From Trebouxia sp. TZW2008 (taxonomy: Eukaryota; Chlorophyta; Trebouxiophyceae; Trebouxiales; Trebouxiaceae), in NCBI GenBank assembly GCA_002118135.1, contig BDIU01000290.1:1-64000 (forward strand): a stretch of DNA of 64,000 nucleotides. Reading direction: 5' to 3'. The first letter of the stretch is position 1. Every line of letters begins with the position of its first letter. The notes under the pieces are model-generated. The model was not told the origin of the DNA, did no database searches, and was given only the letters and a program-made list of their open reading frames with translations. Made by a program: the position numbers and the translations under genes. Of this stretch, positions 39,501 through 63,118 are shown in pieces.

Positions 39501-41755
39501 GCTGAAGCTGATACGTCAGCAGCCATCCATGAGAAAGGCCCGCTGGCAACATAGCAGTGCTATTACTGTTCTCTTGCTGCCAGATCAAACCGTTGTTGAT
39601 AGGCTGTATGTCAAGAGTACTGAGGCTGATTTTCTGGCAAACAGTCACAAGCAATGCTCCACTGAAGACGCAGCACCACCTTTGCTGCCTTCTTGCTGCA
39701 ACATCACAGCTTCATAGATGCCTGCTGGCTTCTCTAGATTTGTGCTTTCACAGGGGTGGAGAGGTAGCCAACAATGCCTTGCACTGATAGCATAGCCATG
39801 CATAGGCTGAGCAAGGCCTGCAGAAAACACAGCAATGCTTTTGCTGCCAGCTTGCTGCTGGATCAGATTGTCACAGAGTCATGTATGTTGACTTCTCTGC
39901 GATTGTAGGTTTGAAGCCTTTTGATGCTCTGGGCTTTGCCTATCCCCACAAATCAAAAACGCCCTCAAAAAGCCAAAAACACCTGAACCTACATATGATT
40001 TGCATGTGTTTGCAGGGCCGAGCCTACCTTGAAGCTAGAATCAAGCTGAAGGAGAAGAGGTATAACAATGTGGGTGGTGGCATCATGAAGATTGTGGTTG
40101 ATGGCTACAATGCGCCGGTGACAGCTGGCGCCTTTGTGGACCTTGTGGAGAAGAAGTGGTACGATGGCATGGAGGTCCAGCGAGCTGATGGGCTTGTGGT
40201 ACAAACTGGCAGACCAGAAGGCGATGTGAGTAAACACTGACTCTTGCAACATAATTATGCGCGTGTGTTTTGTTTCCATCTAAAATGGCGCCCTTGTGGA
40301 TCTGGTGGTGGAGAAGAAGACTTGCGATGGCATGGAGGTCCAGCGAGCAGATGGACTTGCAGTGCAGACTGGCAGACCTGAAGACGACGTGATTTCGTTA
40401 TTTGGATCATACATTCATTCTTTGGGTCATACATTGATTCTGGGGTCGATGTCAGACCCTGCTGAACCCTTTTGTTATCTGCTGCTGACATCTAACATGA
40501 TGTTAGCGCGCTTGCCAGATCAAGTTCTAATAAGAGGTTCTGGTTGCCAATGGCTGTGACAGTAACAGATTCTGTTTGAACGGTGCATGCATGGGACGTC
40601 CTGAATTCTTTGTGGTGACAGAGTTGTCATGGCCAGCTTGACATCAGGCTGAAGCCCTTGACCTGCTCTGCTCCAGTACCAAATGCTCTTTTGCTTCTTG
40701 TGACAGCCTGTTAATTGTGGCTTGTGACAGTGTCGAAATCTGCATATGCTTTGCAGGATGAGGGTTACAGGGACCCTAACACCAAGGAAATCAGGAGGGT
40801 TCCTTTTGAGATCATGGTTGCAGGCGACAAGGTCCCAATTTACGAGGAAACCCTGGAAGATGTGCGCAGATTCAATGAAGACCCTGCTCTACCCTTCAAT
40901 GCTTTTGGGACCCTAGCTTTGGCCAGGGCTGAGTTTGATGCTAACTCTGGCTCCAGCCAAGTCTTCTTCTTGTTGAAGGTATGTTGAGTCATCATCAGCA
41001 ATTCAAATCCTGACCGAAATGGGCTCTGCTAGTCATTGCATCACACATTCCTAGGCAATCAATTACATGTCTAATGTGGCGTCTGAGTCAAGCATTGACC
41101 AGAAGCTGACAAGGTTGGAAAGAACAGACAGGCATCTTGCTGAAAAGCTTGCCCTACAGACAAGAGCATCAACATTCAGCATCAGCGCCAACTCTGCTCT
41201 GCTGCAGGCCACAGGCACGCGCAACCTTGCCGCCACAGTGCAAGAATCTGCTGATCTTTGCCCCTCCCCTGGACTCAAAGCCTGATCTGCTTCTGACACT
41301 GTGACTGCATGCTTCGTCAAGCATTTGCAGCTGACTCATCTGTTCTGCTTACTCAGACCTCACAGAAAGGACAAAGGACAGCAGCATGTTCTCAGAGACC
41401 ATCATATGATCGCAGATGATTTGTTTGTTTGACAAAGCAATCCCTGTGCCGGGCAATATGACAGGATCCAGGAACAGCCTGAAATTGCTCACCCAGTGAT
41501 TAAGTGACATTTGCGTCCCAGGCTGCGCTCAGAACTTGTGATTGTGAATTGCTGTCGCAGGAGTCTGAGCTGACACCAACAGGAGCAAACCTGCTTGATG
41601 GCAGATATGCTGTGTTTGGCTATGTTGTTGACGGCGCTGACCTGCTACAAGAGTGCCAAGTAGGAGACACATTTGAGTACATTAAAGTGACAGACGGCGG
41701 TCAATTCCTGGTACAGCCAGTGCCACACCCAAAAAGCAGCTCAGGCACAATCTGA
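36525..41755 (+). CDS. CYP37: Thylakoid-lumen cyclophilin-type PPIase, CYP37-like
   Basis: Nine exons, all phase 0: 36525-36695, 36772-36882, 36942-37055, 37199-37267, 37397-37471, 38895-39092, 40016-40225, 40757-40978, 41561-41755; 454 residues. The N-terminus has a Ser/Arg-rich plastid transit region, then an Ala-rich hydrophobic stretch ([15 protein letters not shown]) as expected for lumen import. A helical region follows ([14 protein letters not shown]), as in the CYP38/TLP40 group, then the cyclophilin-like domain: [61 protein letters not shown]. The run PFNAFGT...[17 protein letters not shown] is what points to CYP37 rather than CYP38. The donor of exon 2 (36883) is the least certain site. 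CYP37/CYP38 proteins help photosystem assembly; catalytic isomerase activity is uncertain. Confidence 0.85.
38010..38330. repeat. Two-unit ~227-bp tandem repeat in the cyclophilin intron
   Basis: AGCAAGAAGGCATGAGGAAG followed by CTGCAGCTCAGTGCTTGCAAGC (from 38014) recurs as AGCAAGAAGGCATGAGAAGG... (from 38241). The 1.4-kb intron 37472-38894 otherwise shows nothing I can name. Confidence 0.65.
39330..39640. repeat. ~115-125-bp tandem rep in the cyclophilin intron
   Basis: Units with GCTGAAGCTGAT...CAGCAGCCA(A/T)CCATGAG...AGTGCTA(C/T)TACTGTTC...CAGGCTGTATGTCA, best seen at 39411-39525 and 39526-39640, with a partial unit before. Intron sequence; no exon similarity noticed. Confidence 0.6.
40287..40394 (+). 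repeat. Tandem copy of the cyclophilin exon 7 tail
   Basis: Repeats 40127-40234 at an offset of 160 bp, encoding [18 protein letters not shown] and [13 protein letters not shown] against [17 protein letters not shown] and [13 protein letters not shown]. The splice donor GATGTGAGT of the real exon is GACGTGATT here, so it looks silenced. Confidence 0.8.
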
Positions 41756-42602: not shown

Positions 42603-45197
42603 CTAGCTTGCTGATTGCAACCACTGACAAACTTGCTCTGCGTTGGACTGGAGCCATTGCATGTTGGCCTGTATGCTGTCAATGCCATTATCAAAGTAGC
42701 TGCGCTCTGACAGATACTGCTTGTGTGCCTCATACAACTGGTTGACCTGCGTATACAAGTCACAGATGTGGCTGGTACTGAATGCACAGGAACTAAACAG
42801 CAGCAGACTTCACTTTATTGTACAGCATGACAGCGGGAGTAGCCGCATTTGAAGCAGGACATACAGTAGCCGAGAGCTGATCATTCGGCCAACTCATGGG
42901 CTAGACAGAACTGCAGAGCATACACAAAACAGAAATAATCTCAGGTGTGAACAGGGCATTTATGCATGGCAGCAACCTAGCGATGCCAGCTGCATGTCGC
43001 ATGAGCTCCAGCAAGCACAAGCAGTTCATTGCCAGAATGGCGCATGCTACGAGACACAGCGCTGAACAGACTCTGCAAATCATGTCCATTGTCAAGGACA
43101 TGTCCAACTGTGTCCAATGTAGAGCATCTGTGCTGATTTGCATAGCACGCGCATGCGATTTTGATGCTCTTGAGCCAAAAAATGCTGGGGAAACGCGGTT
43201 CTGCAACACATGAACTGGCAAAGCATCAACAGTTGCTGAGCTTGCACCAACTCCATCTTTGAAAAAAGCGGAAGCTAAGGCTGCCATGACGCTTGAGTGT
43301 TGTCTGATCAACCTGTGCTTGAGTAGCAACGTTTAAATGCATGCGCAGCTGATCAACACGTCCAATGCGAGGCATGAATGCTCCGTCACGTCTGTCCAGC
43401 GTCAGTGCAACACCATGAAGGTGCATCAGCCCTAAGGCACAGCTGAGTTATGGGTTTAGCGTTAGGGTTCACCTCATCAATCTGTGATTGTATGGCAAAG
43501 TGTGAGGCAATGCTCTGCGTAGCTTTGCCCATGATGCGGCTGGCTTCATTGTCGCCGCCCAACTTCCTGTACAACGCCATCCAATTCCTGCAGCACATCT
43601 CTAGTCAGTACCGCACTTTGAGCTAATTTGCCTTTTCCACAGACAACCTTATCTGGCTAGCTTTGTCGTTGCCGCCCAACTTCCTGTATAGGGCCATCCA
43701 GCTCCTGCAGCACAAATGTACTCAGTACTGCACATTGGACTGCAAGGGAGGATTGCCTGCCCGTTACTAGGAACCTTGTTGAAGTTACTCCAAGTTGGGC
43801 ATTTGCGTTTTATAGTCTGCTAAGCCTTTTGGCAGTGCTGCACAAAGCGTCCAGAACAAAGCGGACCAATCCAATCGTGACATTTAGTCAACACTGCGTT
43901 TGGGCACAGATGATCAAGTCCAGCTGAAAGCACAAAATAACCAGAGCTATCTGCTATAGGTAAGCACCTGGAGCTACAAGCATTGAAAGCCACGGATACA
44001 ATGACATGGATTGCAAACACATTGCTGCACAGGGGTTTGATGAAACGCGCAGACATTGTGTGTTGAACAAGATGAGATTGTCTTGCTAGTCAACCTGTGA
44101 AAATATCCCAGGCAGCGTAGGCAGCTGTATTCAAGCAGACAGCCACACAGACAGCAGGTTTCTGAGGCTGTATTGAAAAGAAAGTTTCGGAACACACAAA
44201 TGCATTGCATTCATAGACTGGGACTCACTCTGTGAAAAAGTCCGAGGCAGCATGGGCAGCGGTGTTTGAGCGCACAGCCACTCCAGATAGCACATTGTCA
44301 AAAACACCTTGAACAGCAAATGTGAAAGAATGCTATACTCACTCTGTGAAAAAGTCCCAGGCAGCATGAGCAGCGGTGTTTGAACGCACGGCCACTCTAG
44401 AAAGCAAACTGAGGGCGTCTTGAGAGCGCACAGATGGCTCCAGAACCATCTCTAGAGTGCGCTGCCGCAGGGTTGTATTCCTGGCATAGGCCAGTGCATA
44501 CATGTTGCGCTCTTTCTCTGATGGATCAATTGCCTACAAGAAGCGGAATTGAGTGCTTTAATGCTGTTCTCCTGCACACGGTAGTCACAATCTCCCTAGC
44601 AAACATGTACAGGATGAGATGTATGCATTTGACGCTTCTGGTGTCATCGTACCTGAAGACATGTGCACAGCACAAGGCTACGTGTTCTGGAAGCACTTCT
44701 AGCATGGACACCAATACAGGCAGCGACTGAAGCATTGCTGTGGGATGTCAATCCAGCAGAGCGGTTTGCGCAGCTGATGCATGCTGTTTGCTTTTGCACA
44801 TAGTCTTCTCTATCATCCACCGCGAGATAACGAAAGAAAACAGTAAAAGACAGCTGGCAGCCAGCATCTGCCAGGCATCTTTTTGACTTACGTCCAGGTA
44901 CAGTTGGCGCATGATGTCATAGCTGGCAGCCCCGCCATTGGCCACGGCTTGTGTGTACACCAGCTCCCGCACATCTGGATCAATGCCCAGAACGTTGTTG
45001 GCGTTGTCCTGCAAACACTTGTCATGCTCACACTCAACACACAAAACAGATCACACAAGAATTCGTGTCACCTTTTGCTGTGCTGCAGCTGCATAGCCAA
45101 ACTTTGTCAAACTCAACTGAGAGCTGCAGAGGCAGCGTTTTAATGTCATGGGCGCAAATCATCAACAATTGTGACAGCATGTGCTGTTGCTGTCTGA

Positions 45198-45230
<33 letters not shown>

Positions 45231-45529
45231 TTGTGAAAGGCCAACGAGTTTGCACTGGGTCAGCATGAAAGCATTGACTGCGGCTGCAGCAACCCATGCA
45301 AGGCATCATACTGGCCCCAGTGCAAAAGTGCTGGTCACTCAAAACAGCAGCAGACCTGGAAATTGTGAATGGCATTGCCAGCAGCAGAAGCATCCATGGG
45401 AACATTGACGGAAGCACAGTCAGCAGCAGCAGCAATAGCGACAACACTTGACAGCAGCAGCATTGCTAGCAGCAGCAGCAGCAGCAGCAATTGCAACAAC
45501 CACTGACAGCAGCAGTAGCAGTAGCAGCC

Positions 45530-45562
<33 letters not shown>

Positions 45563-48500
45563 CCCAAGGCAGCAACAATGACAGCGGTAAGTCGGTCCAT
45601 CAGGTGTTTTTAACGTTTTGTTCAATAATTTGAAAAAGACTTACACGAATGTTCTCGATGTCTTGCCGTCAGATGAACAATCTGTCGCGAGCGACAAATC
45701 TACCCCAGCCAGACGACTGCACAGCCGGATCAGCTACAGTGGTGGTGTTGAAGTGGTCAACCAGGGACAGCATCAACAGCAGCAGCGGGGTTTTGCCAGC
45801 TGTGCAGCTTCTACAGGTGGGCACATTTCTGCTGCTAGTCTGCTACCTCCTCTGGTCCTGCCGCTGACAACATCGTTGCTCAGCCTCAGAAGCAGAAACG
45901 AGCTAGTAGATTGACAGCAGAAAGGTGTCCAGTGTGGAAGCTGCATAGCCAGGGCAGGCCGCAGCGGTGGTGCTGCAGCAGCCAGCCAGGAACAGCAGCG
46001 TTGACAGCAGCAGCAGCAACATAAAATACCACCACCACCACCACCACCACCACCACCACCACCACCAGCAACTGCTGCTGCTTTTACCAACAGCAATAGC
46101 AGCAGCCGCAGCAAAGTTTGTCAACTACACTGACATGTAGGAGCTGCACAGCCGGTTGGGCTACAGCGGTAGTGTTGTAGTAGCCAGCCAGGACCAGCAG
46201 CGTTGACAGCAGCAGCAGCAACAAAAAATAGCACCACCACCACCACCAACACCACCAGCTGCTGCTACCAACAGCAATAGCAGCAGCAGCAGCAGCAAAG
46301 TCTGTCAACTACACTGACATGTGGGAGCTGCACAGCTGGTTGGGCTACAGCGGTAGTGGTGTAGTAGCCAGCCAGAGACAACAATAGCAGGACAGCAACA
46401 GCAATGACAGCACAAGTAGTAGCAGTAGCAGCAGCAACAGCATCAACAAACGCAGCAGCGTTTGTTACCAGCAGCAATAGCAGCAGCAGCAAAGTTTGTC
46501 AACCAGTCTGACCTGTAGAAGCTGCACAGCCGGCTGGGCTACAGTGGTAGTGTTGAAGTAGCCAGCCAGGGACAGCAGTGTGGGGCGCAGCAGCCTTAGG
46601 GACTCTGAGTTGGCATCAGTTCCAGGGATGGCGCTGGAGATAGAAATCCCATGGGTTTGAGCTGCAGAACAGACAAGCAGAATATTTTGCACTGATGTCG
46701 TAGGGTCAGGAGATTAATGCGTGGTAGAGCAGAGAATGTGTGGGAATAGCAGCGTAGGGCGCAGCAGCCTTAGGGACTTTGAGTTGGCATCAGTTCCAGG
46801 AATGCTGCTGGATGCATTTGGGCTGCAACACAGAACCTGATTGAGTGGTGGCACAGTAAAAAGGCAACAGTTTGTCACAGAGTAGTAGTTCGGCAGGGAC
46901 AGCATATGGGCAGAAGCAGCCTTAGGGACTCTGAGTTGGCATCAGTTCCGGGGATGGCGCTGGAGATAGAAATTTCATGGGTTTGAGCTGCAGAACAGAC
47001 AAGCAGGATATTTTGCACTGATGTCGTAGGGTCAGGAGATTAAGGCGTGGTAGAGCAGAGACTGTGTGGGAATAGCAGCGTACGGCGCAGCAGGCTTAGG
47101 GACTCTGGGTTGGCATCAGTTCTGGGAATGCTGCTGGAGATAAGAATCCCATGCATTTGGGCTGCAACACAGAACCTGATTGAGTGGTGGCACAGTAACA
47201 AAAGCCAACAGCGCGTCACAATGCGCAATGATTCAGCAGGGACAGCATGTAGGCCAAAGCAGCCTTAGGGATTCTGACTTGGCGTCTGTGCCAGGAATGC
47301 TGCTGGAGATAAAGATCCCATGGGTCACAACTGCTGTGCAACAGGGCAATGTGCGCTGGAGACGAACCAGCAGACAACTTTGCCAGTGCACAATCTCAAA
47401 CACGCCTAACAGCAAAACACTTTGCTTTATTCTATTTTTTCCTGTCATGCATTGGGGATGCAGCGTCAGGCAAAATCTGCAGTACAGAGCAATGACCATG
47501 TCAGGGTAAGTAATCGAAGTGGGCGTCACTTCACCATCCTCACCAAAAGGGACGCAGTGCTGCTGGTGTGAAGTTTGCAACATGGTGCAAATGTTTTATG
47601 TGTGTCACCTGAGCAACTTGATGATTGGAGCCTGTCACTCCCATTGCATGCAAGTTGGGAGAGTGTCAGACGGAAGAAACCCACAGCCAAACTACGGCGT
47701 ATGCTGCACAGCAAGCAATCTAGGCTGGAGCACATAGTGCACAAAAATGAATAGATTTTCTTACCTGCTGTAATGTATGTCAGAACTGGGATGGAGATGT
47801 TGTTGCGCACAAATGCTGACCATTCAGCTGCGCAGCTGGCTTCGCCCTGGGCCATGTTCAGGTACTTGTAGATTTGGGTCAAGGGGGACGCCCCCACCAT
47901 CCAGGCTGACACCAGGGGCTCAGGCCTCTGGGCCAAAGACCTGCAATGAACACATAGCATCATGCATGTGGGTGCTGGTAGGTTTGCACGACCCTACTGA
48001 GCGCATGCAGGAGTCATGCTGAGATACTGGTAGATGTGGGTCAAGGGGATCCTCCACCATCCAGGCTGACACCAAGGGCTCAGGCCTCTGGGCCAAAGAC
48101 CTGAAATGAACACGACAATCTTCTTCACTACCATCACTTCACTGTCAGCATCTTCTGCATCATAATCATCAAGGTTTTGTCACTGGGGCCAAGGGGGCGC
48201 GGCCCATCAGCCAGGCTGACACCAGGGCTCATGCCTCTGGGCCAAAGACCTGCAATGAACACATAGCACCATAAATATGGGTGCTTGCAGGGTTGCATGA
48301 CCCTGATGGCCATCTCCAGGATACCCCAGCTTTGGGGCAGCTAATAGCCATCATCTACCAATCTGGCCAAGTCCTTGCTGCCCATGATACATGGAAGGAC
48401 CACAAATCAGCACAGCAGGGCTGCGTTGGAAGATAGCGTAAACAAAATTAGCAGACCTTGGGTGCTAGAAGACCATATGTACCTGATAAGGTCCAAGTAA

Positions 48501-49784
48501 ACAGTGATTGATAGCACCCCACCTTGTAAAAGCTGATAGGCATCGTCCAGCAATCCTGCCAAACCCTTGCTGTCCACAGTTATGCTACACCATAACACAG
48601 GAAAGGCTCCAAACACGGGCCGGAAAACTTGAAAACTGACGAGATGCAGGTAGACAGGAATGAACAAGGCCCCAGCTTTTGACAGCTGATAGGCATGATC
48701 CACCAATCCTGCCAACTTCTTGCTGCCCATAACACATTGTAGGACCAAAAGACAGCATAGCATAATCGGCTTGAAAGATCAGCCAAATAAGATTAACAGA
48801 CCTGACAGCCCGAAGTACTAAAAGACCAGATCAGGTCCGAGTAGACAGTGATTGATAGCAACCCAGCTTTGGACAGCAGATAGGCATTGTCCAGCAATTC
48901 TGCCAACTCCTCCATCCCCACAGTTATGCTGACACCATAACACAAGAAAGGCTTTCACAATAAGCCAGCAAAGTTCAATCACCTGATGAGATCCAGGTAA
49001 ACAGTGATGGACAGCACCACAGCTTTTCACAGCTGATAGGCATTGTCTAGCCATCCTCATCACCGTCAACCATGTTGAAGTTTGTGTACAAGCAAGACAG
49101 AAAAGGCTACAACAACAAGCCAAAAGTAGTATAGTACCTGATGAGATCCAAGTAGACAGTGATTGACAGCACCCCAGCTTTTGACAGCTGATAGGCATCG
49201 TCTAGCAGTCCTGCCAAATCCTCACTGCCCAACACAGTCCTGGCGCCATAGGAAACTGCCGCAGCAGCTGCCAGGGACTCCCACATGGGCTGGGTGTAAT
49301 TCACGCGGTAAAAGCCGTATTGACCGGCATTCAGCTTCACCCATTCCGTTCCAGGGTCTACCGTGATGGTGGCTGCATGCGCTCCAACACAAGTGTCCAG
49401 TTGGATTGCCCAGTTGAGTTCGGGATTGGTGTTGGCTATTGTGGGCAGGGGTATCCACCATGGGGGGGTCCCTGTTGTGTTGGTCTCATCACACACGCCT
49501 GGACCCTGGCTAGTGAAGGGCACCTGCGCAACACAGTTGTCTTGTCAACATTCTATGCCATTCGGCAGCCTGATGATGTGCAAGCAAGACTTGTATTGAA
49601 GATCAGCACTGTAAACGCAACTTCAAGAGCTCACTTCCTTTGCCTGCATATGAAGTATCAAGCAGAATCAAGCAAGGCGCATGTCAAAATATGACAACAT
49701 GTGACGCTCAAAACAAGCCGGCCTGGCGGGATAGGAGTTGGACCACACACACCTAGCACATAGGCTGCTGAATAAAAGTAATTA

Positions 49785-49828
<44 letters not shown>

Positions 49829-52800
49829 CTGTTGATGACGTCATCATGATTATTATTATGTCACACCGTTGCCCAAACACTTCAGCTTGTGCATCAAGTC
49901 TCTCTCAACATTGACACACAGGAAGCCTGACTAGATTGCAGCACTTGACACACAGATGACATTTGCACGGTTTGCATACAATTCATGCATCACACAAAGC
50001 CCGCTGTGCATCACCTGGGACACCACAACTTGTGTGTCAAACCTCTCAGCATTCACAAGCGGGAAGCCTGACTGGTAGGTCCATTGCTGGGTCCATCTAG
50101 GGATGGGCAGGTGGGTTTCCTGACCCACAGCCTCCCACAATTTCTCGCTGCTGCCTGTGCTGTATTGGTTGGCTTTGAGGTACCTTTGCAGTCCCCTAAT
50201 GAACACATCTGGCTGCTCAGCCTGCATTTTAATCACACAAACAACAAATGCATGCAATCCTTGGAAAGGAGGCAGTAGGTAGCAGTATATCAGCCTTCAG
50301 GCAAGCCATACACTTGAGATTTGTCATAAAACCAAATCCTCAAAACAAGGAATGGCAAGATGGGTGCAGCTGAGAAGCTGTAAGTGTGAAAACCAAGAAG
50401 CACTTTCAAGTTTGCAAAGTCAGGGGAGATGCGATGTTGGTAGCCTGCACATATGCTGCACTGCTCTGAGGTGTGAGTCAGACTGGCAAGCGAGATCCTC
50501 ATGTCAGCATAGAGGCAAATATTGCTCATACAGCCATCTCACTTGACAAATGTGTTCACTTCTATAAGCAGCGCATGCCTTTGATACTCATGCTGGCAGG
50601 ACCGAGAACATCACCCTTGCATTTAGAACAGCAAATGCTGCCCATGCTGGCATGACCCAGAAAATCATTATTTCAGACCCTAACAAACAGAACAGTAAAT
50701 GCTGCTATATAACCAGCAATTTTAGCACAAGTCTTTGTCGTTATACGCAGCATCTTGCTGCTTGATCATGCTGACAGGACTCACCACTCTGATGAGCGGC
50801 TCCTGACATTATGATTCATCAGGTTTTGGGCAATGGGGTTTCAGAACCCTGAGAAAAATGTACAGATTTATTTTTGGCAGGGGAATTGATGAGGTTGAGG
50901 GGTTTAGGGTTTTGAGGTTTTTTGCGCTTTCTATGGTGGGAATCAAAATCCAATAAGATGTAATGCAGGGGTTGAATTGGCTCTACAGGTGCAACAGGTT
51001 ATGGTGTTTGGTTAGGTCAGGTTCAAACCCTCCAGGTCGGCGTCAGAAAATCTGAAATGACATTTTTTGTTCAACTTCCAGACATTGAATGTCAGTCGTT
51101 CTTACAAAGATGCTCAGAACAAGCCTGCACTCTCTATGGGAGTATTGCACTGGCTGTGATGCCAGCTAGAGCAGCTCACACAAAAAGATTGCGGCGCCAG
51201 ATCTGATGGGCTGTACCTCTGAGCATATGACGCATCAGTAGTAACAATCAAGTCACTGCTGTTGCATCGACTTTTGAGCTGCTGATGATGCCTTCTGCAG
51301 CCTTGTGTCACTGACCTGCAAGAAGCTGCTGTGCTCTGCTACATGCTGCAGCGTACACTGGTGCATGCTTCATGATGCAGTACAATGCAACTCTTGAGTC
51401 TTTGCTGCCTGTGTATCAGAGGTAGCTGTTCTGCGTGCTCAGCCCAGGATACACAGCATCGCGTGAGATCAATCCACTGTATGGTGCATGCTACATGTCA
51501 CGTGTAGACACAAAGTTCACAAACAGAACACAGACCTGTTGTCCATGTTTTGCAGCAATAAACCCCAGAAAGCTGCAGCCTGAAGACCCCATTTGCGCTG
51601 AAGCGTGCATAAGGCCGGCATCATCGATTTTCAAGCAGCATGATATCTTTGACATTGCCTGTCACGTGTTTGCGCAGTTACACCATCAAAACTCTCCCCA
51701 GATATGCAAAAGTGTCTAGTTTATGAGAAGCACACCTGAAGCAAGCTGCGGCGTAGGCCATAGGGCTCGTCAGCAATGCGGCGGCTGTTGAGGTAGGCTC
51801 GGAACATGCGGATGACTGAGCCGCCTTTCTGGTAGCTGATGGCATCAAAGAAGGACTCGATCCTACCAATAGAGTCCACACCTGCACATCAGTTGTGATA
51901 TTTTCAAAGCTTTGTGATTGGAAGCAGTCACCAGAGCAAGCACTTGGCAGAAGAGGAATGCTGCACCATCAAAGCTGCACTGCAGCTGCAGTGCCGGCAC
52001 ATGAGTGCTTTTGGAAAAGATTGGTTTTTATACAGAAACAGACTACAGCACAATCAACACTAGCAAATACATCATGACCTGCACCCAGTTAGACCATGAA
52101 GTATCCTTGCTGAGACCAGCAGTGGTTGTAGAAAGGAGCAACAAAGACCCGAAGTCACAATCAAGGCATACATGGACACATTCTTGGCATCTCACAGCTG
52201 CCCTATAAAAATTCCAACTTTAAACAGTAAGTCCTTGAAAAAAAGGACACATCCACCGACCTGAAGTGGTTGCCAAGGCATGTGTGGAGACATTCTTAGC
52301 GTCCAGCAATTGTCCAAGGCTGGTTTGGGCGGCGTAGAAGGTGTCAAAGAAGCGGTACTCGGGCCTAGCAGCTGTCGCACCGTAGTTCTCAAAGTAGGTT
52401 GCAAAACCCTCGTTCAGCCATAGCTCACCCCAGTAGTCACATGTGACCAAGTCACCAAACCACTGCATCGCAAGATCAAAATGACAGTAAGAATGACATC
52501 TCAAGGTAAGGGAAGTCTGGTGCTTAGTACTGACACAAAGCTGTATATATCGCACATCAAGCAGCAGTTTATGCTGCTCATAGTCATATGGCTGGGCAAT
52601 GAAGGCATGAAAAGTGGCTTGTTCATTGAAAATAGCTCACAGCAAGGCAGCACATTATAGTACCGATGTAGGCCATGATCAGCTGCATCACCTGATTACA
52701 TGGTTGGTCCATGACTATCTGTTTTCTGAGGCCAGGTGAAGATCAAGCCCAACATGGCCAAGATCAAAGACAGCCGGAACAGAATGCAGGGGAGTCAATG

Positions 52801-55800
52801 GCATCTGCTTGTGCCATTAGACAAACTTGTTGCTGGAAGGGTCGTGACTCAGCTGAACTGCTGCAACAGGCCAGTCAAGTTGTTGTCTGGTCATCTGCTT
52901 GTAAACGTTTTGCAAAGCTGCTTGCAAATGCAACACCCTGTCTTTAGCTTGCAAAGGTGGTGCACTGCAAGCAGCCTGGCAGAACAGCAACATCCAGACG
53001 ACCAGGCAATGGCATGAATGGCTTGCTGCGGTACTCAGCCTGAGTGATGCAAGCATGAAACAGGCAGTTTGGCGCCTCTTGCTCTTCTTCCTGGCTATTG
53101 ACAGCTCAAAGCAACATGCGTGCGAGATCAACGGATTGCAAAGCTATTGCAATGTCCAAACTAAGCAGCATGAATGATCTCAAGGCGACTTTGACTTCAT
53201 GTTTCCGTGTTGCCATCAAGCTCGACAAGCAATGCATGCAGCAATGAAACATTGGAAAATGTACAGTGGCAACATTGACGGCGAACAAGGAACTGTTGCA
53301 CAACTCCTGAAATTTGCGTGCTGGATGTGCCCATTGAAACATGATACAGATGCTGTAACGGCCAATCAATGCAGACATGGCAATATTTTGCAAAAGCTCC
53401 TCAGTAGAGCCTCACCTGGTGAGTCATCTCGTGGGCGATGATGTAAGCCACATTCCTGACATCTGCCAAGCTAGCATGATCTGGGTCTACTAATAGAGCA
53501 GTCTCTCTGTATGTAATCAGGCCCCAGTTCTCCATTGCTCCAGCAGCAAAGTCAGGAATGCCAATCAAATCCAGCTTTGGCAGACTGAAGGGGATGTCGA
53601 ACAAGGATTCAAAAGCTGGCAGCACCCTGGCTGTGATATCAAGGGCAGTCTGCAGATTCCCCGCCCTGCAGTGTTGAACAACAGTCTTTGCAGCAATGTC
53701 AGGAATGCCAACCAGGTCTAGCTTCGGCAAACTGAAGGGGATCGACAATGCAAAGTTGCAACAGCAGCCACTGTGAGTACAATGCTGTTCAGCTCTGGTG
53801 ACTGCAAAGCAAGAAGAGTCTTCATTTCACCACAAACAACAAGAACCAAGTGACCAAACAACAGGCTCACAGACCTTACAGCATAGCAACCAAGAAAAAT
53901 TGCCCGAGGATGGTGGCCTAAAATGGTGGGCTAAAAAGGATCAAGACACCTAGAGTGCCAACAACACCACCAGCATGATGAGCAGCAAATGGGATGCAGA
54001 TTTTACCTGTCAGGAGTGCCATAGATGCTGACATTGCGGTCTGGCTGCCCGCTCACAGGGTGAGGCACCATGGTAGACACGCTGGTCAAGTTGCCCATGA
54101 TCAAGGCTACCAGATAGGTAGACATTGGGGGAGACGCCGCAAACTGGGTGCTTGTGAGGCCCCCTGAGAGGTCTTGCGTGGAGGCGACCGGCATGTTTGA
54201 AAGAGCTGTCAAGCCTGTCTCTGTGGTCAGGCTTATGTCAAACGTTGCCTGCGGGGTAAGAATCGCGATGTTGATGTATGCGTTAGCAGTGCATCCTGAA
54301 CATTGGTGAAGATGTGGCAAACTGGGTAGTTGTGAGGCTCTCTGAGTGTTCTTGTATGGAGGCAACTGGCATGTTTGAAAGAGCTGTTACGCCTGTCTCT
54401 GTGGTCAGACTGACGTCAAATGTGGCCTGCAGACACCAGCAAACTCAAGACACAAGACAAAGAAAACTGTATGCCGATAGACGCTCTGGGCAATTTCAGG
54501 TGGAGACAACTGGCATGTTTGAGAGAGCTGTCAAGCCTGTCTCTGTGGTGAAACTTATGTCAAAGGTGACCTGTAAGCACCAGCAATCTTATGAGACAAG
54601 CAAAGAAGATGTATGCCAATAGGCATGCTGGGCAGTGTCATGTGGAGGCAACTGGCATGTTTGAGAGAGCTGTTAGACCTGTCTCTGTGTTGACACTGGT
54701 GTCAATGGATGCCTGCAGGCATGATAGCTGCAACATGAATGCAAGCATCACTTGTACATGCTTGCAGCCAGCAGCCTGCAATCAGCAAGAGAGCTGTCAA
54801 CCCTGTCTCTGTGATTAGACTTGAGTTCAATGTGACCTGCAAGCATGTGCAGTCATGACATGAATCAAAATATGGCTCCAGCCTTGACCGCTCCAGCCTT
54901 GACTAATCCAGCCTTGACTAATCCAGCCTTGCATTTGGCATGCGTGACTGGCGAGGCGCTCTGACACTCAACAATTAAACCGGGCACACTGCACATGTTT
55001 GCATTCATGCTGTTTTGCCCATAGTCTGCTGCTCCCAGGTTGCCCTTCTCAGCAGCAGCATACTAGGAGAAGAACAGTATCAAAGCAAACAACGGCAGCA
55101 TGCCAGACTTCACAAAGGGTGACAGCAGGGCATCTACCACCCAAAGATGCTGTTGACCATGCTGAGATGCATACATAGGCATCCAGGCTTTGAAACAGTA
55201 AGAAACAGAGCACTGCTATGCAGACTTTTCTGCAAGCAAGCAGGCAGTGCAAAGAAGAAAGACTGCAGTCTCAACACTAGTGACACTGGTCAAGGTTGGG
55301 AAGCCCTGCGTAAGCAGAAAGAAGCTCTGAAACCAAACAGCCAAGCTTGGCATACTGAATGTGTTTGCTCACATGCTGTTATACCCACATGTGGCTGCTC
55401 TCAGGTCAAAGTCGACTTCAGAGCTGCCAGATTTGGGAATGACAGCTTTTGACACGGCAATGCAGTGTACCAAACTTGCTGGATCATGCCTCAATCTCAA
55501 CGAGAACTGTGGCATGAATTCAGCCCTGAATAGCCTTGAAGTCCGGCATTACAGATGCATCAATGATGAAAAGCTGTTACATCAAACAAACAAGCCTCGC
55601 ACACTGCACATGTTTGCTTTCATGCTGTTATACCCATATGTGGCTGCTCTCAGATCAACAGACTCAACTCCAAATCTGCCAGATGTGGGGTTGACAGCTT
55701 TGGACCCATCAGCATGCAGCATACCAAACTTGATGGATGGCAATAGCAGGCCATGCAGCCACCCGAGCATACTGTTGAATGTGCTGAACAGCTAACATAG

Positions 55801-58800
55801 GAGCAGTTGAAAGTCTGAGGCAATCAGCTTTTGAGCAGCAAGAAATGAGCACTGCTATGCAGACTCTCCTGCATGCAAGCGGGCAAGTCATCTTGTGAAT
55901 GACTGGAATTCCCAACAAGAATGACAATGATCAAGGCTGGGAAGCCATGCATAAGCAGGGAGAAGCTCTGAAACAAAACGACCAAGCTTGACATGCTGAA
56001 CGTGTTTGCTTTCATGCTGTTACACCCACATGTGGCTGCTCTCAGGTCAACAAACTCAACTCCAGAGCTGCCAGATTTGGGAATGACAGCTTTTGACACG
56101 ACAATGCAGTGTACCAAACTTGCTGCATCATGCCTCCATCTTAACGAGAACTGTGACATGAGTTCAGCCTTGAATATTCCAGCATTACAGAGGGCACGCG
56201 TCAGTGATGAAACGCTGTCACATCAAACAATCAAGCCTCGCATACTGCACATGTTTGCTTTCATGCTGTTATACCCACATGTAGCTGCTCTCAGGTCAAC
56301 AGACGCGACTCCAGACCTGCCAGATGTGGGAGCAACAGCTTGATGCTAGATCATGCAGCATGCCAGAGTTGATGTATGCCATCAGCCACGCAAGGATACT
56401 GTTGAATGTGCTGAGCTGCTTCAAAGCAGCGACTGACATTCAGGCTGTTGATCAGGAAGAAAAAGAGCACTGCTAAGCAGACCCTCCTGCATGCAAGCTA
56501 ACAAGCCATTGTTTGAATGACTGCAGGTTCCAACAAGCATGACAGAAGTCAAGGCTGAAAAGCCCTGCATAAGCAGGAAGAAGCTCTGAAACCAAATCAC
56601 CAAGCTTGGCATGCTCAATGCGTTTGCTTTCATGCTGTTATACCCACATGTGGCTGCTCTCAGGTCAACAGACTCGACTCCAGACCTGCCAGATGTGGGA
56701 GCAACAGCTTGATGCTAGATCATGCAGCATGCCAGACCTGCTAGATTCATTCACTCATTCTTTCATTATAAAGGTGGGCTAGGCAGGCTCAGCAGGCCCA
56801 ACATGGTGCATACAGAAGCAATCAACTGTTTCCAACCAATTCGATCTTCCGCTAATTCAAAAAAGTTATATGCTAGATGCCAACAGGAGACCAGGTTGCT
56901 TTCTGAAACGACACGCTGAGAACGCTCGAACAGCTGTGCTTTGTGATTGACATAGCAGTGCTCTCTTCTGCACTGCTGTCAGTGCCTGGTTGCGTAGGAC
57001 TCAGCTTGAGCATCCAGTATCACTCTGGAGCCGACTTAAACAGCGTGTCACATTTTCAAATAAGAATTTGACGCCGTAAGGCTCCAGGATTTCAAAAACC
57101 CTCATGTCTAGGGGATGCATAAGGTAGAGCCCAGCAGGGCCAGGAAGGACTACTCTGGCATTGGTGGGGTAGAGGATCAATGCTACAGAGTTTCTACAGG
57201 TTGGCCTGAGATCTGACGCTAGATTTGCTGTACCTTGAGCCTCAGCAAGGCAACTTTACTTTTCTAGCACAGATTTCTATCACAGATTCTCTAGGCAAAG
57301 ACAGACATCACAGATTCTCTACCTTGAGGTTGGGGTCATGAAAGCAGAGAAAGACTTTCGTGGCATTGGTCGGGCATGGGATAGGTGTCACAGGTTCTCT
57401 AGGCAAAGAAAGACATCACAGATTCTCTACCTTGAGGTTGGGCTCGTCAAAGCAGGGAAAGACTTTCCTGGCATTGGTGGGGAAAAGGAAAGTGGTGGCC
57501 ATGGCTTGCCTGTACCCCCCAGCTGCAGCCACCACACATCATGCTGAGCACGCTGGGCATGCTGAGGGACACAGGCATGCCACACCACCTGCTACACAGC
57601 TGCTTCTACGCTCTGTTTCAAAATTCATGTTACTGTGTGACAGACCAACCTTTCCGCTGACCGGAGTCTTTATGAGCCTGGGAAGGTTCTGGACTGACTT
57701 GGCCCTGTTTGTGGTCAGAATTGTATGGAAAAGCAGCAGGAAGGGCATTGCAACTAGAAGGGTTGCTTGAAAGAGGAAGGAAAACAGATCCAGCTTTTAA
57801 GCTTTGCACTAATGGGGATACAGTTGTCTTTGGAATCAACAAAGCAAGTAAGTAATGATGTGTAGGGGGTTTGGAGCTAGCTGCACACAAGTAGGAGTCT
57901 GACTGACCTTCAATGCAGGCTCATCTAAGCAAGGGAAAGCCAGCCTAGCTCCTGAAGTCTCAAACTGAGTAGTGCCCAAAGTGTTGTTCACACCATCAGC
58001 CGCTGCAACAAACAGCAACGCTGATGCCTTGACCGACTTCTACACTTGATGAGACTCTGTACATCAAGTTCGCCATGAGAATCTATACATTGTATACATA
58101 ACGAAGCTCTACAGATTGTATATATGATGAAGCTTGAAATGGCCATGCACAACATTCCTAAATCAGCAGCACAAGCATGATTGCACGCATGCAATACAAG
58201 CACAGCAGACAATACCGTTGACATAGTCTGTAAGGCCCTTAGGTGTGACACAGTGAAAACATAATGTTTGATGGAGCGCACTTGTACCTGTGAACTCGCT
58301 TCTGTAGAGACCTTCCAGGCCAGGTCGCAGGTAGTAGTCAAAGTCCACACCTATGGTAGCCAAGGGTCTGGGGACGAGGCTGTCAAACCCTAGGATCATT
58401 TGCTCGCTGGTGGTGTTATGCGCATATACGCCGCCTGAACATGAAGCATGCGTCTCAGACCTCCAGTTTTGATAGCAACAGCCATATGGCCTTGTGCAGT
58501 TGATAATTGACTTATGACTTAGGCGAGGTTGTGAAGATGAAGGGAGAGGACATATGGGCAAGGACCAAGGGTGAATGTGTGCAGCTTGAGCATGTGCAGT
58601 CACACTCAGGAATTATGTGTGTGTGGTGATGGCTGCTCTCAACAGCTGCCCAGGCAACACCAAAGTCCTTTTGCATGCTTGCTTCCTGGGCTGTTACAGT
58701 GCTATGCAGCTGCAAACAAGCAAAGGCTGCACTGTTGTGTGGCACAACAGCATTGCGGCAAGGTACACTCTACTCAATTCCATGGCGTGTGAATTGTATG

Positions 58801-59740
58801 TACGCATATGGCTGCTTGAAATACCTGTAAAATTTGCAACAAGATTTTTTGGCATGCATGCTGTTTGGGCTATGACGTTGTGCTATGTAGCTACAGGCAA
58901 GCACAGGCCGCACTGTTGCATGACACAACAAAACTGAGGCAAGGTACAATCTGCTTTGCACAGGGTACATGGGCCATCAACAGAAGTTATTGGCAGTAGA
59001 TAAAAGTCCTACAGGGTGTAAGGTTGAGATATAAAAGAGAAATCACCTGTTGTGTTGCCCATGACTGACAATGATGAAATGTTCATCCTGGATGTGTGCA
59101 GCACAACACACGGTGTGTCCTCTGTCACGTTAAGCTGTATCTGGACTGTGCCTGTGACTTTGAATGGCTCGTGTAGCTGTACATTGAGACTGAGGTTGTA
59201 AGCCACAGGTGTGATGGCTGCTGGAAGTCTCCAGGCATCCCACCGACATGTTGAGTACTGGTTCAGGAAGGTTGCGTTTGAGATTTTGTTGATGATGTCT
59301 TCTGTGTTGTCTGATATCGCATCTGCTGCTGCTGATTTGCTGCTGGAAGGCAGAGCAATGATTGCAAGAATGATGACCAAAGCTGCAGCAAAGCCTCCGC
59401 AAATCCACCAAAACAGCCTTTTCTGTTTTCTGGTCAGCTGATACCACCAGCTGGGGGGGAGGAACCTCGAGCAAGGAGTGCGTGTGACGAAGCGGGTACA
59501 GTCGAGGCCACAGCAACGCACGCGCTTCATGCCAGCATATTGCTCCCAGTCTAGCAGGACCTGGTCATCTTCGTCGTAGTCCATGGACAAGTCAAAGACG
59601 GTCTGGTCGTGTCTGTCAAAGCTAGACTCGCGCTGTTGCCCATTTGAAAGCAGCTGATCGTCGCCATCATCGTCTAGCGAGTAGTTCTGCATGTTGTTGC
59701 GCCTGTGGGGCGAATGGGATCCACTTCTTGGGGAGTCCAT
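42603..59740 (-). CDS. M1-family zinc aminopeptidase, type II membrane protein
   Basis: Fifteen exons in phase: 59047-59740, 58288-58434, 57908-58002, 54007-54248, 53416-53665, 52261-52462, 51736-51881, 50015-50221, 49138-49523, 47765-47940, 46513-46661, 44892-45008, 44343-44533, 43473-43587, 42603-42746. They sum to 3,261 nt, 1,086 residues plus stop. A cytoplasmic acidic tail is followed by one transmembrane helix (about 109-130), then the M1 ectodomain: FPCLDEPALK, the substrate-recognition motif GAMENWG (435-441), zinc site HEMTH (471-475) with the third ligand Glu494 in WLNEGFA (HEXXH-X18-E), SYQKGGSVIRM with the catalytic Tyr, and an ERAP1-like C-terminal helical domain (IDPDVRELVYTQAV, IDPSEKERNMYALAYAR). 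It should cleave N-terminal residues from peptides outside the cytosol, at the surface or in a vacuole. Introns carry about 25 partial exon copies, listed separately. Confidence 0.92.
43650..43704 (-). repeat. Copy of aminopeptidase exon 14 start
   Basis: Reads SWMALYRKLGGNDKASQ against NWMALYRKLGGDNEASR in exon 43473-43587, offset about 117 bp, with its own CTGCAG acceptor. Confidence 0.75.
44090..44290 (-). repeat. Two copies of aminopeptidase exon 13 tail
   Basis: The exon end at 44343 (NTAAHAAWDFFTE, donor GTGAGT) is repeated with junctions near 44230 (VAVRSNTAAHAASDFFTE, donor GTGAGT kept) and 44094 (AVCLNTAAYAAWDIFT, donor lost). Offsets are about 113 and 136 bp. Confidence 0.75.
45181..45575. 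repeat. CTG/CAG trinucleotide arrays
   Basis: CTGCTGCTG...GTTGCTGCTGCTG at 45195-45235 and a longer (CAG)n/(CAGTAG) tract at 45418-45565 with about ten uninterrupted CAGs at its end. They lie in the intron between aminopeptidase exons 11 and 12. Confidence 0.9.
45700..46400 (-). repeat. Array of four copies of aminopeptidase exon 11 tail, separated by triplet repeats
   Basis: The second half of exon 46513-46661 (LAGYFNTTTVAQPAVQLLQ) recurs with anchors near 46333, 46149, 45941 and 45721, against 46529 in the exon (offsets 184-220 bp). Text drifts: LAGYYTTTAVAQPAVQLPH, LAGYYNTTAVAQPAVQLLH, then weaker. Between units lie CAG runs and a (CCA)n run at 46028-46068. Confidence 0.8.
46750..47335 (-). 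repeat. Array of four copies of aminopeptidase exon 11 head
   Basis: The first half of exon 46513-46661 (THGISISSAIPGTDANSES) recurs four times upstream. The anchor CTTAGGGA(C/T)TCTGA falls at about 46595 (exon), 46770, 46921, 47095 and 47263, i.e. steps of 175, 151, 174 and 168 bp. Copies read SSSIPGTDANSKSLRLL, ISSAIPGTDANSESLRLL, ILISSSIPRTDANPESLS and IFISSSIPGTDAKSESLR. One further copy loses part of the head. Confidence 0.85.
47999..48252 (-). repeat. Two copies of aminopeptidase exon 10 head
   Basis: The start of exon 47765-47940 (LAQRPEPLVSAWMV, acceptor before 47940) is repeated with junctions at 48100 and 48249, offsets 160 and 149 bp. Plus-strand text CCAGGCTGACACCA(A/G)GGGCTCA is nearly unchanged; the second copy has an indel. 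Confidence 0.85.
48340..49065 (-). repeat. Array of five copies of aminopeptidase exon 9 tail
   Basis: The end of exon 49138-49523 (LAGLLDDAYQLSKAGVLS, then ITVYLDLIR) recurs. The anchor GCTGATAGG is at 49188 in the exon and at about 49032, 48875, 48684, 48532 and 48343: steps of 156, 157, 191, 152 and 189 bp. The copy near 48532 (LAGLLDDAYQLLQGGVLS, YLDLIR, donor GTACAT) is still fully readable; those near 48684 and 48875 are altered. Confidence 0.88.
49785..49828. repeat. (TTGCTG)7 hexanucleotide repeat
   Basis: About seven perfect TTGCTG units in the intron between aminopeptidase exons 8 and 9. Confidence 0.95.
53680..53740 (-). repeat. Copy of part of aminopeptidase exon 5
   Basis: IPFSLPKLDLVGIPDIAA repeats IPFSLPKLDLIGIPDFAA of exon 53416-53665, offset 148 bp, directly before that exon's acceptor. 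Confidence 0.85.
54290..54840 (-). repeat. Array of four copies of aminopeptidase exon 4 head
   Basis: Exon 54007-54248 starts ATFDISLTTETGLTALSNMP. Copies start at 54427 (ATFDVSLTTETGVTALSNMP), about 54572 (VTFDISFTTETGLTALSNMP), 54713 (ASIDTSVNTETGLTALSNMP) and 54838 (VTLNSSLITETGLTALL). Steps are 179, 145, 141 and 125 bp. Each keeps an acceptor-like (C)CTGCAGG or CCTGTAAG complement. Confidence 0.88.
55000..56740. repeat. Higher-order tandem repeat in aminopeptidase intron 3
   Basis: The anchor CATGCTGTTATACCCACATG followed by TGGCTGCTCTCAGGTCAAC occurs near 55008, 55372, 55620, 56013, 56262 and 56632. Steps alternate 364, 248, 393, 249 and 370 bp, so two unit types (with and without the CTTAACGAGAACTGTG-like segment) form a repeating pair of about 620-640 bp. 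I found no resemblance to aminopeptidase exons. Confidence 0.8.
57300..57480 (-). repeat. Two copies of aminopeptidase exon 3 tail
   Basis: Exon 57908-58002 ends GARLAFPCLDEPALK. Copies end at 57431 (NARKVFPCFDEPNLK) and 57323 (NATKVFLCFHDPNLK), each followed by a GTAGAG donor-like site and the sequence AATCTGTGATGTCT. The two copies are 108 bp apart and about 480 bp from the exon. Confidence 0.82.
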
Positions 59741-60325: not shown

Positions 60326-63118
60326 ATGATCGGTTGTAGCCCTCTGGGTCGAACATCATTCGTTGTGCACCAAACCAGGGCATTTGTCAGGCAGGGTCTG
60401 CAACGTAGACTCGCTGTTCGACAAATCAGCAGGTTGCGTCTGTGTGCGCGGATTTCAGAGTCGGCACAGCTGCATGATGCAGTACATTTGACGTTGGCAG
60501 CGCTGCTGCGCAGGCGAAATCAAGTCTTAGATATGTCGTCCGCTGCCAAACAGGGCGATGTTGAATTGTTTGTGCTTTCTGGTCGCGGAGCCCCAGAGCT
60601 AGATGAGCTTACAAATCTGCCGAATGGAGTGCACTTGCTGGGAACTGGCAGACCCGATCAAGAGTTGAAAGGTGCGCAACAACGCTCCGCTCGGGACACT
60701 TGCTTGCTCGCCGTGTCTCGTATCGATGCATATGCAAGTTTCCCCACAGGCTGGTCAAAGGCAGACTGGGAGAAAGTACAGGTGCTACTGAAGTGTGGAA
60801 CAGGCAAAGATGCATCAACGAAGCAAGAGCTGCAGGTGACTAGCACAGAGTGCTTGCAATCTAGACAGCAATCAGCCGACAAAGCTCAAATGCAGCTCAT
60901 CATTCAGCTGGGCATGTGCTGTCTGTCTGGACCAATCAAGTTTTGAATCTGTGGGATACATCCACCAGGATGTTTCCAAAGTATGTTGCTCTGCTTGTAG
61001 GACATCTGGCCGCATCTGACCAATTTGAAATGGATTCACTCAGCATCGGCAGGTGTGGAGAAGTTGCTATTTCCAGAGCTTGTCAAGAGCCAAGTCATTG
61101 TCACGAATGCCAAGGTACTGCTTGCCAGCTGTAGCCACTGAGTTGCGCTGTGCTCCCGCTCCCACCTGTCTGCAACCACATTGTTTATTGCTCTGCAAAC
61201 ACTGCATTGCCAGTAGGCTTGTCTGTCTATAGCATGCGTGCTGATACTGTGATGGCTGGCGCTGCATGATGCTGTCTGCTGTTGAAGACCTTGATCAAGA
61301 TTGTGAAGAGAGGCATTGTCGCGTCTGCTGTTGTCCCGCTATGAGCCATGCAGCACAGCGGCAGCGGCAGCAGCGGCGGCAGCAGCAGCAGCAGCAGCAA
61401 GCCTCTCCGTGCTCTTGCAACAAGTCATTTGCTTGGTGCTGTCACTCTAGACTGTAAAGTGTGTGTACTTCCAGGGTGCATACAGCCATTCTTTGGCGGA
61501 GTGGGCGCTGACAGCATGCAATTGGTTTGCCAAAGACCTGCCACGCCTGAAACGGCAGCAAAAGGATAAGAACTGGGAGTCCTATTATGTTGAGGAGCTC
61601 AGGTTTGCTCTCATCAGTGCTCGCACCAGCGCACGTGCTCACTATCTGAAGGTATTTCAACTCAAGTAGGTTGAGCTTGGAAAACATCAGCTGTTGATAC
61701 AAGTTATGGCATCTGCATCCAGCATGATGTGGCACTCATGGTAACCAATGGAGTTTATGACACTGCATTCTTTCTCTAGCGCGTTGTCCCTGCCTTTCAC
61801 CATACTTTTCCATGCAAACGCTGCTGTAAGAACAGTCATGTTTGTAGGGGTAAAACGCTAGGTGTAGTGGGTTATGGCGACATAGGTCAAGAGACAGCCA
61901 ACATAGCACGCGCCTTCAAGATGGACATCATAGCACTCAGAAGGCGAAAAGAGCTTTCACAGCATGACAAAGACTTGAATCTCAAGGTATGTGTCCTGTG
62001 ATGCTGAGACAACCTTTTCTGTTTGGTTTACTACTTCTGTGGCGTCTCATGGCCAGCTTGCAGGCAAAGCCTCGATCAGACAGACATGACAGCCTCGTGA
62101 TGCCTTCCTGACCTGTTTCATGCATGTAAGGGGCTGCTGGGACACATGACTGGCCTGACTAAGCACTGTACTGGCGCTGTACATCTGGTCAGTGCACCTC
62201 TTCTTGCAGAAGTGGTTTCAGAGATCTCAATGCATAGCTCGTTTCTTGTAGCCAATTCGTGCTGTTGAGCATGAATATTGAGCGCGGCAAAGCTAATTTG
62301 TCAGTGTTGCGAGTTGGCAGGCACCTCTAACAACAGACTGCATACTCATCTTCAGTGTTGGCATGGGGATTCAGTCAGCAGACCTCCCTGAACAGCAAGA
62401 TAGCTTCAAATGTCAATATATGGTGCAGATCTACACACCTGACAAGCTGAACGACCTGATGGCATCAAGTGACTACGTCGTGGCAGCACTACCACACACT
62501 GACAAGACAGAGAAGCTCGTGAATGCTGAAGCTATCAGCAGTATGAAAAAGACGGAGGTCTTTGTCAACATCGGCAGAGGTCAGACTGTAGATGAAGATG
62601 CTTTGATAAAAGGTGAGAGCCTTGCTGATTTTTTGTTTTCCCAGTGACAGCAATGCAGACATCAAAGAAGTTTATGACACAACACATCTGCACTCCTAGC
62701 GGTCAAACTATTTATATACTTGCAGCATGTGCTTGTACCATGAACATAATTTTGCATGAGCACTCCAGCTTGTCTTACAGAGCATTCCTGGCGTCGAGAC
62801 AAGCTTGTTTGCAATGCCCACATGGGACTTTTGTTTGCTTTGACTACTCACAGCAGGACTGCTGTGACGTTGCTGATTGAACATGCAGCATTGCAAGAAA
62901 AGCGCATCAGGGGAGCTGCATTGGATGTCACGTACACAGAGCCCCTACCTCAAGACAGCGCTCTATGGGACCTAGATAATGTGCTGTTGTCGCCGCACTG
63001 TGCTGATCGCACCACTACCTTCCAAGCAGAAGCTATCCAGCAGTTCACAGATTTGGCAAAGCTGTATGTTGAGGGCAAAGACCTGTACAACGTTGTTGAT
63101 AAGGGTAGTGGGTACTGA
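60326..63118 (+). CDS. D-isomer-specific 2-hydroxyacid dehydrogenase (glyoxylate/hydroxypyruvate reductase-like)
   Basis: Exons: 60326 (or 60533)-60671, 60750-60835, 61001-61114, 61475-61602, 61848-61986, 62429-62612 and 62889-63118 (stop TGA); all phases fit. From the ATG at 60533 the protein has 339 residues; the upstream in-frame ATG at 60326 adds 69 basic, Arg-rich residues that could be an organelle-targeting peptide. In the 339-residue numbering the NAD(P)-binding motif GYGDIG is at 164-169, the substrate Arg at 252 (NIGRGQTVDEDAL), the catalytic Glu at 281 (TEPLP) and His at 300 (LLSPHCAD). KWIHSASAGVEKLLFP and AYSHSLAEWAL are typical of the family. It should reduce a 2-keto acid with NAD(P)H; the exact substrate cannot be told. 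Confidence 0.88.
61353..61402. repeat. (CAGCGG)/(CAG)n microsatellite in a dehydrogenase intron
   Basis: GGCAGCGGCAGCAGCGGCGGCAGCAG followed by further CAG units, in the intron between 61114 and 61475. Confidence 0.9.

Follow-up and report, generated by a model that had tools for sequence, protein, structure and literature searches.

Why should the introns of a gene be filled with pieces of its own exons? This question was raised by a 64,000-nucleotide (nt) stretch of the green lichen alga Trebouxia sp. TZW2008 (contig BDIU01000290.1, positions 1 to 64,000; "the window" below means this whole stretch), which carries an aminopeptidase N gene with Peptidase M1 and ERAP1_C domains. A sequence-only reading had reported about 25 intronic segments in this gene that copy the edges of neighbouring exons. 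We counted 24, repeating parts of the same eight exons: exon 3 (two copies), exon 4 (four), exon 5 (one), exon 9 (five), exon 10 (two), exon 11 (four at its 5′ end and four at its 3′ end), exon 13 (one) and exon 14 (one). Weak intronic matches to exon 6 (E 0.007) and exon 8 (E 4.7e-5) were excluded from the 24. We propose, with a probability of roughly 0.7, that these copies are remnants of frequent short (~60–225 base pairs, bp) head-to-tail DNA duplications.

Comparable copies are spread widely over the sampled loci. We analyzed a nuclear set of 279,092 bp from 30 sources, namely the window and 29 further loci of the 68.5-Mb assembly; 12 of the 29 were centred on chaperonin and kinesin genes, and 17, of 8–10 kb each, were picked regardless of genes. 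The low guanine-plus-cytosine (GC) loci L012 and L022–L024 and the short loci L001–L006 stand outside this set. Local self-comparison, restricted to matches within 2 kb, yielded 232 direct and 6 inverted repeats, compared with 0 and 0 in Markov-2 control sequences. In the window alone, 51 matches were direct and none inverted; when low-complexity filtering was switched off, 8 of the 80 matches listed were inverted, located in a TGC/CAG-repeat region. Direct matches outnumbered inverted ones in 24 of the 30 sources, and the other 6 contained no direct match. Of the 232 direct pairs, the 209 with an offset ≤600 bp entered the class tests; they fall into 100 clusters, of which 53 consist of one pair only, giving about one cluster per 2.8 kb over 279 kb. 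At least one cluster was present in 15 of the 17 loci picked regardless of genes (mean 3.8 per locus), in line with the earlier proposal that the process extends beyond one gene. The nearest copy in each cluster lay 67–342 bp away, at ≤225 bp in 93 of 100; 69 clusters fell within 110–220 bp and 35 within 145–180 bp, the two ranges that had been read directly as the usual and the frequent offsets. The 209 pairs were 64–95% identical, a range of divergence that agrees with the suggestion that the copies span a range of ages. Our impression is that the density of clusters may be unusual.

The same data bear on whether false duplication of reads or haplotypes during assembly produced the copies. 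The assembly is fragmented into 527 contigs, and no long-unit array of ≥95% identity was found, so that young long units may be missing through assembly collapse. Against such an artefact, the copies contain stops and form multi-level arrays, and the excess of direct over inverted matches recurs across the sources, with clusters in most of the loci picked regardless of genes. Because identities are spread over 64–95%, an artefact is unlikely for the copies seen, and we regard this explanation as very improbable.

The duplicated DNA includes intron sequence as well as exon sequence. The exon 9 array aligns across whole periods including the intron (233 bp at 75%) and shows head-to-tail units with no foreign spacer. 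In a six-unit alignment of this array, units 1 and 3 were 66% identical in the exon part and 69% in the intron part, and units 2 and 4 were 79% and 61% identical, respectively. Across 103 copied edges, the intron flanks showed excess identity at 11–60 nt, both for donors (0.65–0.70 vs. 0.52–0.59) and for acceptors (0.61–0.70 vs. 0.56–0.58). Seventeen of 28 flanks reached z > 2 when the aligned part was counted. These results demonstrate that intron DNA is duplicated within arrays and, on average, beside copied edges.

We then compared the duplications with the positions of exons, using rotated annotation as the null for exon placement. A self-trained gene finder predicted 483 exons; it placed 9 of 10 aminopeptidase exons exactly, though it was partly trained on them, and reached a base sensitivity of 91% on 80 homology-supported exon pieces, some of which were also used for training. 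Of 928 predicted splice edges, 155 lay inside a duplicated block. Donor edges (73 of 458) and acceptor edges (82 of 470) showed no significant bias, which, together with the duplicated intron DNA, argues against the splicing-linked mechanism suggested in the sequence-only reading. Among the 209 pairs, fewer than expected lay wholly outside exons (30 vs. 66.8 ± 8.1) and more had a splice edge in both copies (55 vs. 39.1, p 0.003). Pairs with a splice edge in just one copy (82 vs. 68.8, p 0.055), pairs matching exon interior to non-exon sequence (34 vs. 26.5, p 0.08) and pairs with both copies exonic (8 vs. 7.7) were closer to expectation. Only 11 of the 100 clusters made no contact with an exon, against 30.3 ± 4.1 under rotation. 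Over all pairs, arrays included, block ends accumulated 5–15 nt past acceptors (49 vs. 7.3 expected) and 0–10 nt past donors (30 vs. 6.6). When exons were instead defined by homology only, using the 69 of the 80 pieces that contained no stop, the count was 9 of 69 against 6.2 ± 2.0 expected (p 0.14), an excess that is not significant. Whether copies are commoner near splice sites than elsewhere thus received a mixed answer, with a clear excess for gene-finder exons and a non-significant one for homology-supported exons. Overall, an enrichment of the duplications at exons is probable, although its support still depends on the gene finder.

The copies themselves are for the most part drifting, with an early phase of constraint possible. 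GT was retained in 36 of 52 donor copies (0.69), compared with 0.52–0.81 for nearby exon dinucleotides, and AG in 39 of 51 acceptor copies (0.76), compared with 0.55–0.71. In-frame stops numbered 17 in 80 pair-sides, and 15 in 74 pairs and 6 in 20 pairs in two subsets. Offsets modulo 3 were distributed 41/29/25 among 95, with no significant frame bias (p 0.11). The ratio of nonsynonymous to synonymous substitution rates (dN/dS) between exon and non-exonic copy was 0.30, and transition-weighted values were 0.40 and 0.33 in two subsets. We also considered protein-level constraint on the copies, as suggested by the mostly synonymous differences in exons 4 and 5; this failed over the 80 pair-sides, where the share of position 3 was 0.49.

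Several results weigh against short tandem duplication followed by drift as a complete account. In the exon 9 array, the intron parts of the other unit pairs were only 34–59% identical. The spacer past the block, which could be followed for at least 25 nt in 20 of the 28 flanks, all from single pairs, had a mean z of 0.5 and thus no homology on average, and 13 of these 20 flanks fell under the 5th percentile of a tandem-clock simulation. Neutral tandem-duplication simulations, run under four settings, gave 1.25–1.94 exon-touching clusters for each non-touching one, whereas we observed 84:11, with 5 further clusters exon-only. Under the same settings, the median ratio of length to offset was 0.77–0.99 (0.65 observed), and block ends fell within 20 nt of a splice site in 15–38% of cases (18 of 29 observed). 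AG retention slightly exceeds that of neighbouring bases, dN/dS lies below the ~0.55 that we derived by hand for a pair in which one copy is constrained and the other drifts, and the independent set of homology-supported exons is small. The unexplained remainder reflects either faster intron turnover than modelled, or some copies born without intron, or an exon half that was refreshed or constrained. An ordinary mechanism that leaves a modest residue around splice sites is still the most likely explanation.

Part of this remainder would be expected if the duplications were made or maintained by an exon-edge-directed process linked to splicing, transcription or chromatin, or by exon-anchored gene conversion that refreshes the exon half. 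Exon contact above both rotation and simulation, blocks that stop near splice sites and spacers that frequently lack homology are all consistent with such a process. The absence of donor/acceptor polarity, the intron sequence that arrays and, on average, flanks include, and the borderline excess of pairs with an edge in one copy only argue in the other direction, as do the 12 most alike arrays, which are all of short unit and outside exons. Because the exon excess is not significant with the 69 homology-supported pieces, an exon-directed process is not established, and we consider it doubtful. If exon edges were preferentially duplicated, or intronic copies continually refreshed from the exon by gene conversion, introns would store spare pieces of exon whose splice sites are already in place, and cassette exons and new introns could be drawn from this store at any time. 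We hold this possibility to be equally doubtful.

Tandem or mutually exclusive exons are exon copies next to their source, and the copies described here likewise adjoin the exon that they match. They could be present or former functional alternative exons of this kind, in which selection preserves the exon and its splice site while the introns diverge. Selection would explain why blocks end just past splice sites, and both the low dN/dS and the slight surplus of AG retention agree with it. One segment in intron 3 of the aminopeptidase gene (57431–57523, minus strand) also retains an open frame and the motif F-P-C-F-D-E-P, and matches exon 3 at 45% across 31 codons (E 3.7e-7); judged from its sequence, it may be a candidate alternative exon and a possible exception among the copies. 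Elsewhere, splice sites and frame are not clearly conserved: GT retention lies within the range of neighbouring bases and AG barely above it, stops are present, and the offsets show no significant frame bias. Moreover, most aminopeptidase copies are partial exons, and the orthologous protein of Trebouxia sp. C0006 holds a single copy of each exon compared. Functional alternative exons are thus an unlikely source of the copies as a whole.

The sizes of the duplicated units are informative about short tandem duplication as well. The preference for nucleosome length proposed earlier did not survive correction for detectability. Corrected unit sizes were roughly flat over ~75–175 bp and fell steeply above (175–225 bp), and the highest bin was 150–175 bp with one indel setting and 75–100 bp with the other. 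Only one cluster exceeded 300 bp, though at least half of such units would be detectable. The most alike arrays (≥95% identity, period ≥10 bp) had units of 10–49 bp in 12 of 12 cases, none of them exonic. An upper limit of unit size near 200 bp remains, and the mode at 145–180 bp arises largely from the detection effect together with this limit.

We infer the following course of events. Repair of staggered breaks, or replication error, would often leave a short head-to-tail duplication in the nuclear genome. Some duplications would later expand to arrays, with slippage or unequal exchange as the probable cause. Where a duplication spans a splice site, it would survive because the outer site, which lies next to the exon body, remains usable for splicing and the coding sequence can stay intact. 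The extra exon piece would be left in the intron and then decay. The exon half of each duplicated block would outlast the rest as a visible match, since selection acts on one of its two copies, while both intron halves drift.

This picture resembles internal gene duplication, the short tandem duplication within genes that was reportedly treated by Gao and Lynch in 2009. The resemblance lies in direct, local, DNA-level copies of exon–intron pieces, whose nearest offsets are almost all ≤225 bp. The Trebouxia copies differ in that a recognisable cluster occurs every 2.8 kb or so, most copies are diverged, and unit size is limited near 200 bp. It had been suggested that no named process fits these copies; passages of PMC4974935 and PMC2891723 nevertheless describe short tandem or internal gene duplication and its link to intron gain. 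Internal gene duplication is cited there as commonly observed (PMC4974935), and tandem duplication as a way of gaining introns that has been proposed and in part demonstrated (PMC4974935, PMC2891723). As in intron gain by tandem duplication (the Rogers model), exon pieces are duplicated here with splice signals and could be absorbed by splicing; unlike in that model, the copies lie inside introns adjoining the matched exon, and no new intron is demonstrated. Passages of PMC8355091 describe how staggered DNA breaks, induced by nickase in mammalian cells, give rise to small tandem duplications via CST/Pol alpha-primase fill-in. By analogy, such events may be a plausible source of the Trebouxia copies, which are also direct and small and, in the exon 9 array, head-to-tail, although they are known from mammalian cells and the copies here are too diverged for exact junctions.

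Introner elements are dispersed repetitive elements in algal introns. They share with the present copies the presence of repetitive material in such introns, whereas within the 64-kb window exon-edge copies match only beside their own exon. The distant matches in the window consisted of simple repeats and of a single pair of paralogous segments together with the repeats belonging to it. That pair is long and diverged (758–2468 and 14500–16216; 67% identity over 1785 alignment columns, 13.7 kb apart), and 93-bp related repeats precede each segment (218–483 and 13688–14211, respectively). Term searches, which covered passages and not whole texts, returned no description of such exon-edge copies for Trebouxia (PMC12712428, PMC11523091), Asterochloris (PMC6652019) or Coccomyxa (PMC3446292).

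The aminopeptidase gene lies on the minus strand. Exons 1–10 were modelled by hand from splice sites and homology, and all 9 introns are GT..AG. The model is 80–81% identical to the C0006 ortholog (81% over residues 250–840), 56% to a database protein and 48% to a protein of Myrmecia, the next named alga. The C0006 protein contains the parts from exons 2–10 once each and is without ~140 residues of the modelled exon 1; further downstream, a comparison by eye with the reading frames of the window showed exons 11–14 once each. Functional copies of exons 3 (57908–58002), 4 (54007–54248), 5 (53416–53665), 9 (49138–49523) and 10 (47765–47940) were identified by the hand model, the gene finder and the C0006 protein. 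That of exon 11 (46510–46661) has approximate ends (46510–46656 by hand, 46513–46661 by the gene finder).

Self-comparison placed the copies as follows, all on the minus strand. A tandem pair in intron 3 (57280–57482; offset 108 bp, 91.6%) overlaps the older exon-3-like segment described above. Exon 4 has four decaying copies of its 5′ edge, spaced ~115–180 bp apart within 54300–54845 (54300–54426, 54500–54567, 54642–54705 and 54790–54822), and the inner part of exon 5 has one intronic copy (53690–53742; offset 147 bp, 86.8%). The 3′ edge of exon 9 recurs five times within 48323–49057, in units of ~155–190 bp separated by intron sequence, and unit alignment hints that two units were later doubled. 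Next to this array, at 48015–48304, the 5′ edge of exon 10 recurs twice (48015–48113 and 48186–48304). Exon 11 is flanked by four copies of its 5′ part (46748–47325) and four of its 3′ part (45717–46383), the latter interspersed with simple repeats of CAG and ACC. Exon 13 has its 3′ edge copied at 44223–44292 from a source block at 44337–44406 (offset 114 bp, 91%), and the 5′ edge of exon 14 forms a pair within 43538–43737 (43538–43620 and 43655–43737; offset 117 bp, 81%). Several exon 9 and exon 10 copies were mistaken for exons by the gene finder (for example 48457–48722 and 48827–48928), a warning for annotation that intronic exon copies can be called as exons. Intron 3 also contains an array of ~110–170-bp blocks (54909–56746) with higher-order offsets of 615 and 1256 bp, which matched no source exon or other sequence in the loci retrieved; two of its open frames were compared with Pfam, and no family exceeded its cut-off. 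Simple repeats (CAG/CTG, ACC and TTGCTG) occur at 45182–45562, 46028–46578, 49785–49834 and 61350–61399, most of them in aminopeptidase introns.

The same phenomenon had been noted in other genes of the window, and tandem pairs were indeed present at all the sites named. On the plus strand, a pair starting at 23494 and 23658 (23494–23809; offset 164 bp, 84%) marks the 5′ edge of a kinesin exon, and one starting at 40126 and 40286 (40126–40392; offset 160 bp, 82%) the 3′ edge of a cyclophilin exon; both gene labels were confirmed. Three further plus-strand pairs within 32489–33611, starting at 32489/32702 (offset 213 bp), 32798/32940 (142 bp) and 33277/33459 (182 bp), lie at exon edges of a gene that only the sequence-only reading labelled ADD. 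A minus-strand pair at 9299/9456 (9299–9521; offset 157 bp, 86%) lies at an exon edge of a gene labelled kinase, again by that reading only. No Rfam family matched the window at gathering cut-offs.

The GC content of the window (50%) agrees with that given in passages on published Trebouxia genomes, which report 63–74 Mb and ~50–51% GC (PMC11523091, PMC12712428). Among the low-GC loci outside the nuclear set, L022 carries NifH/frxC-family (chlL-like) and cytochrome-c-assembly genes, and L024 gave a ParA/MinD-type match in one of the two frames tried. Both appear to be plastid or plastid-like, and both contain many direct and inverted repeats. No protein family matched L012 (one frame tried) or L023 (two frames tried).

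If the density found here holds genome-wide, about 1 in 6 predicted splice edges of this alga would lie inside a recognisable duplicated block. Trebouxia would then offer a convenient natural record of how short tandem duplications originate, spread and decay within genes, and would show how frequently they contribute to alternative exons or to intron gain.

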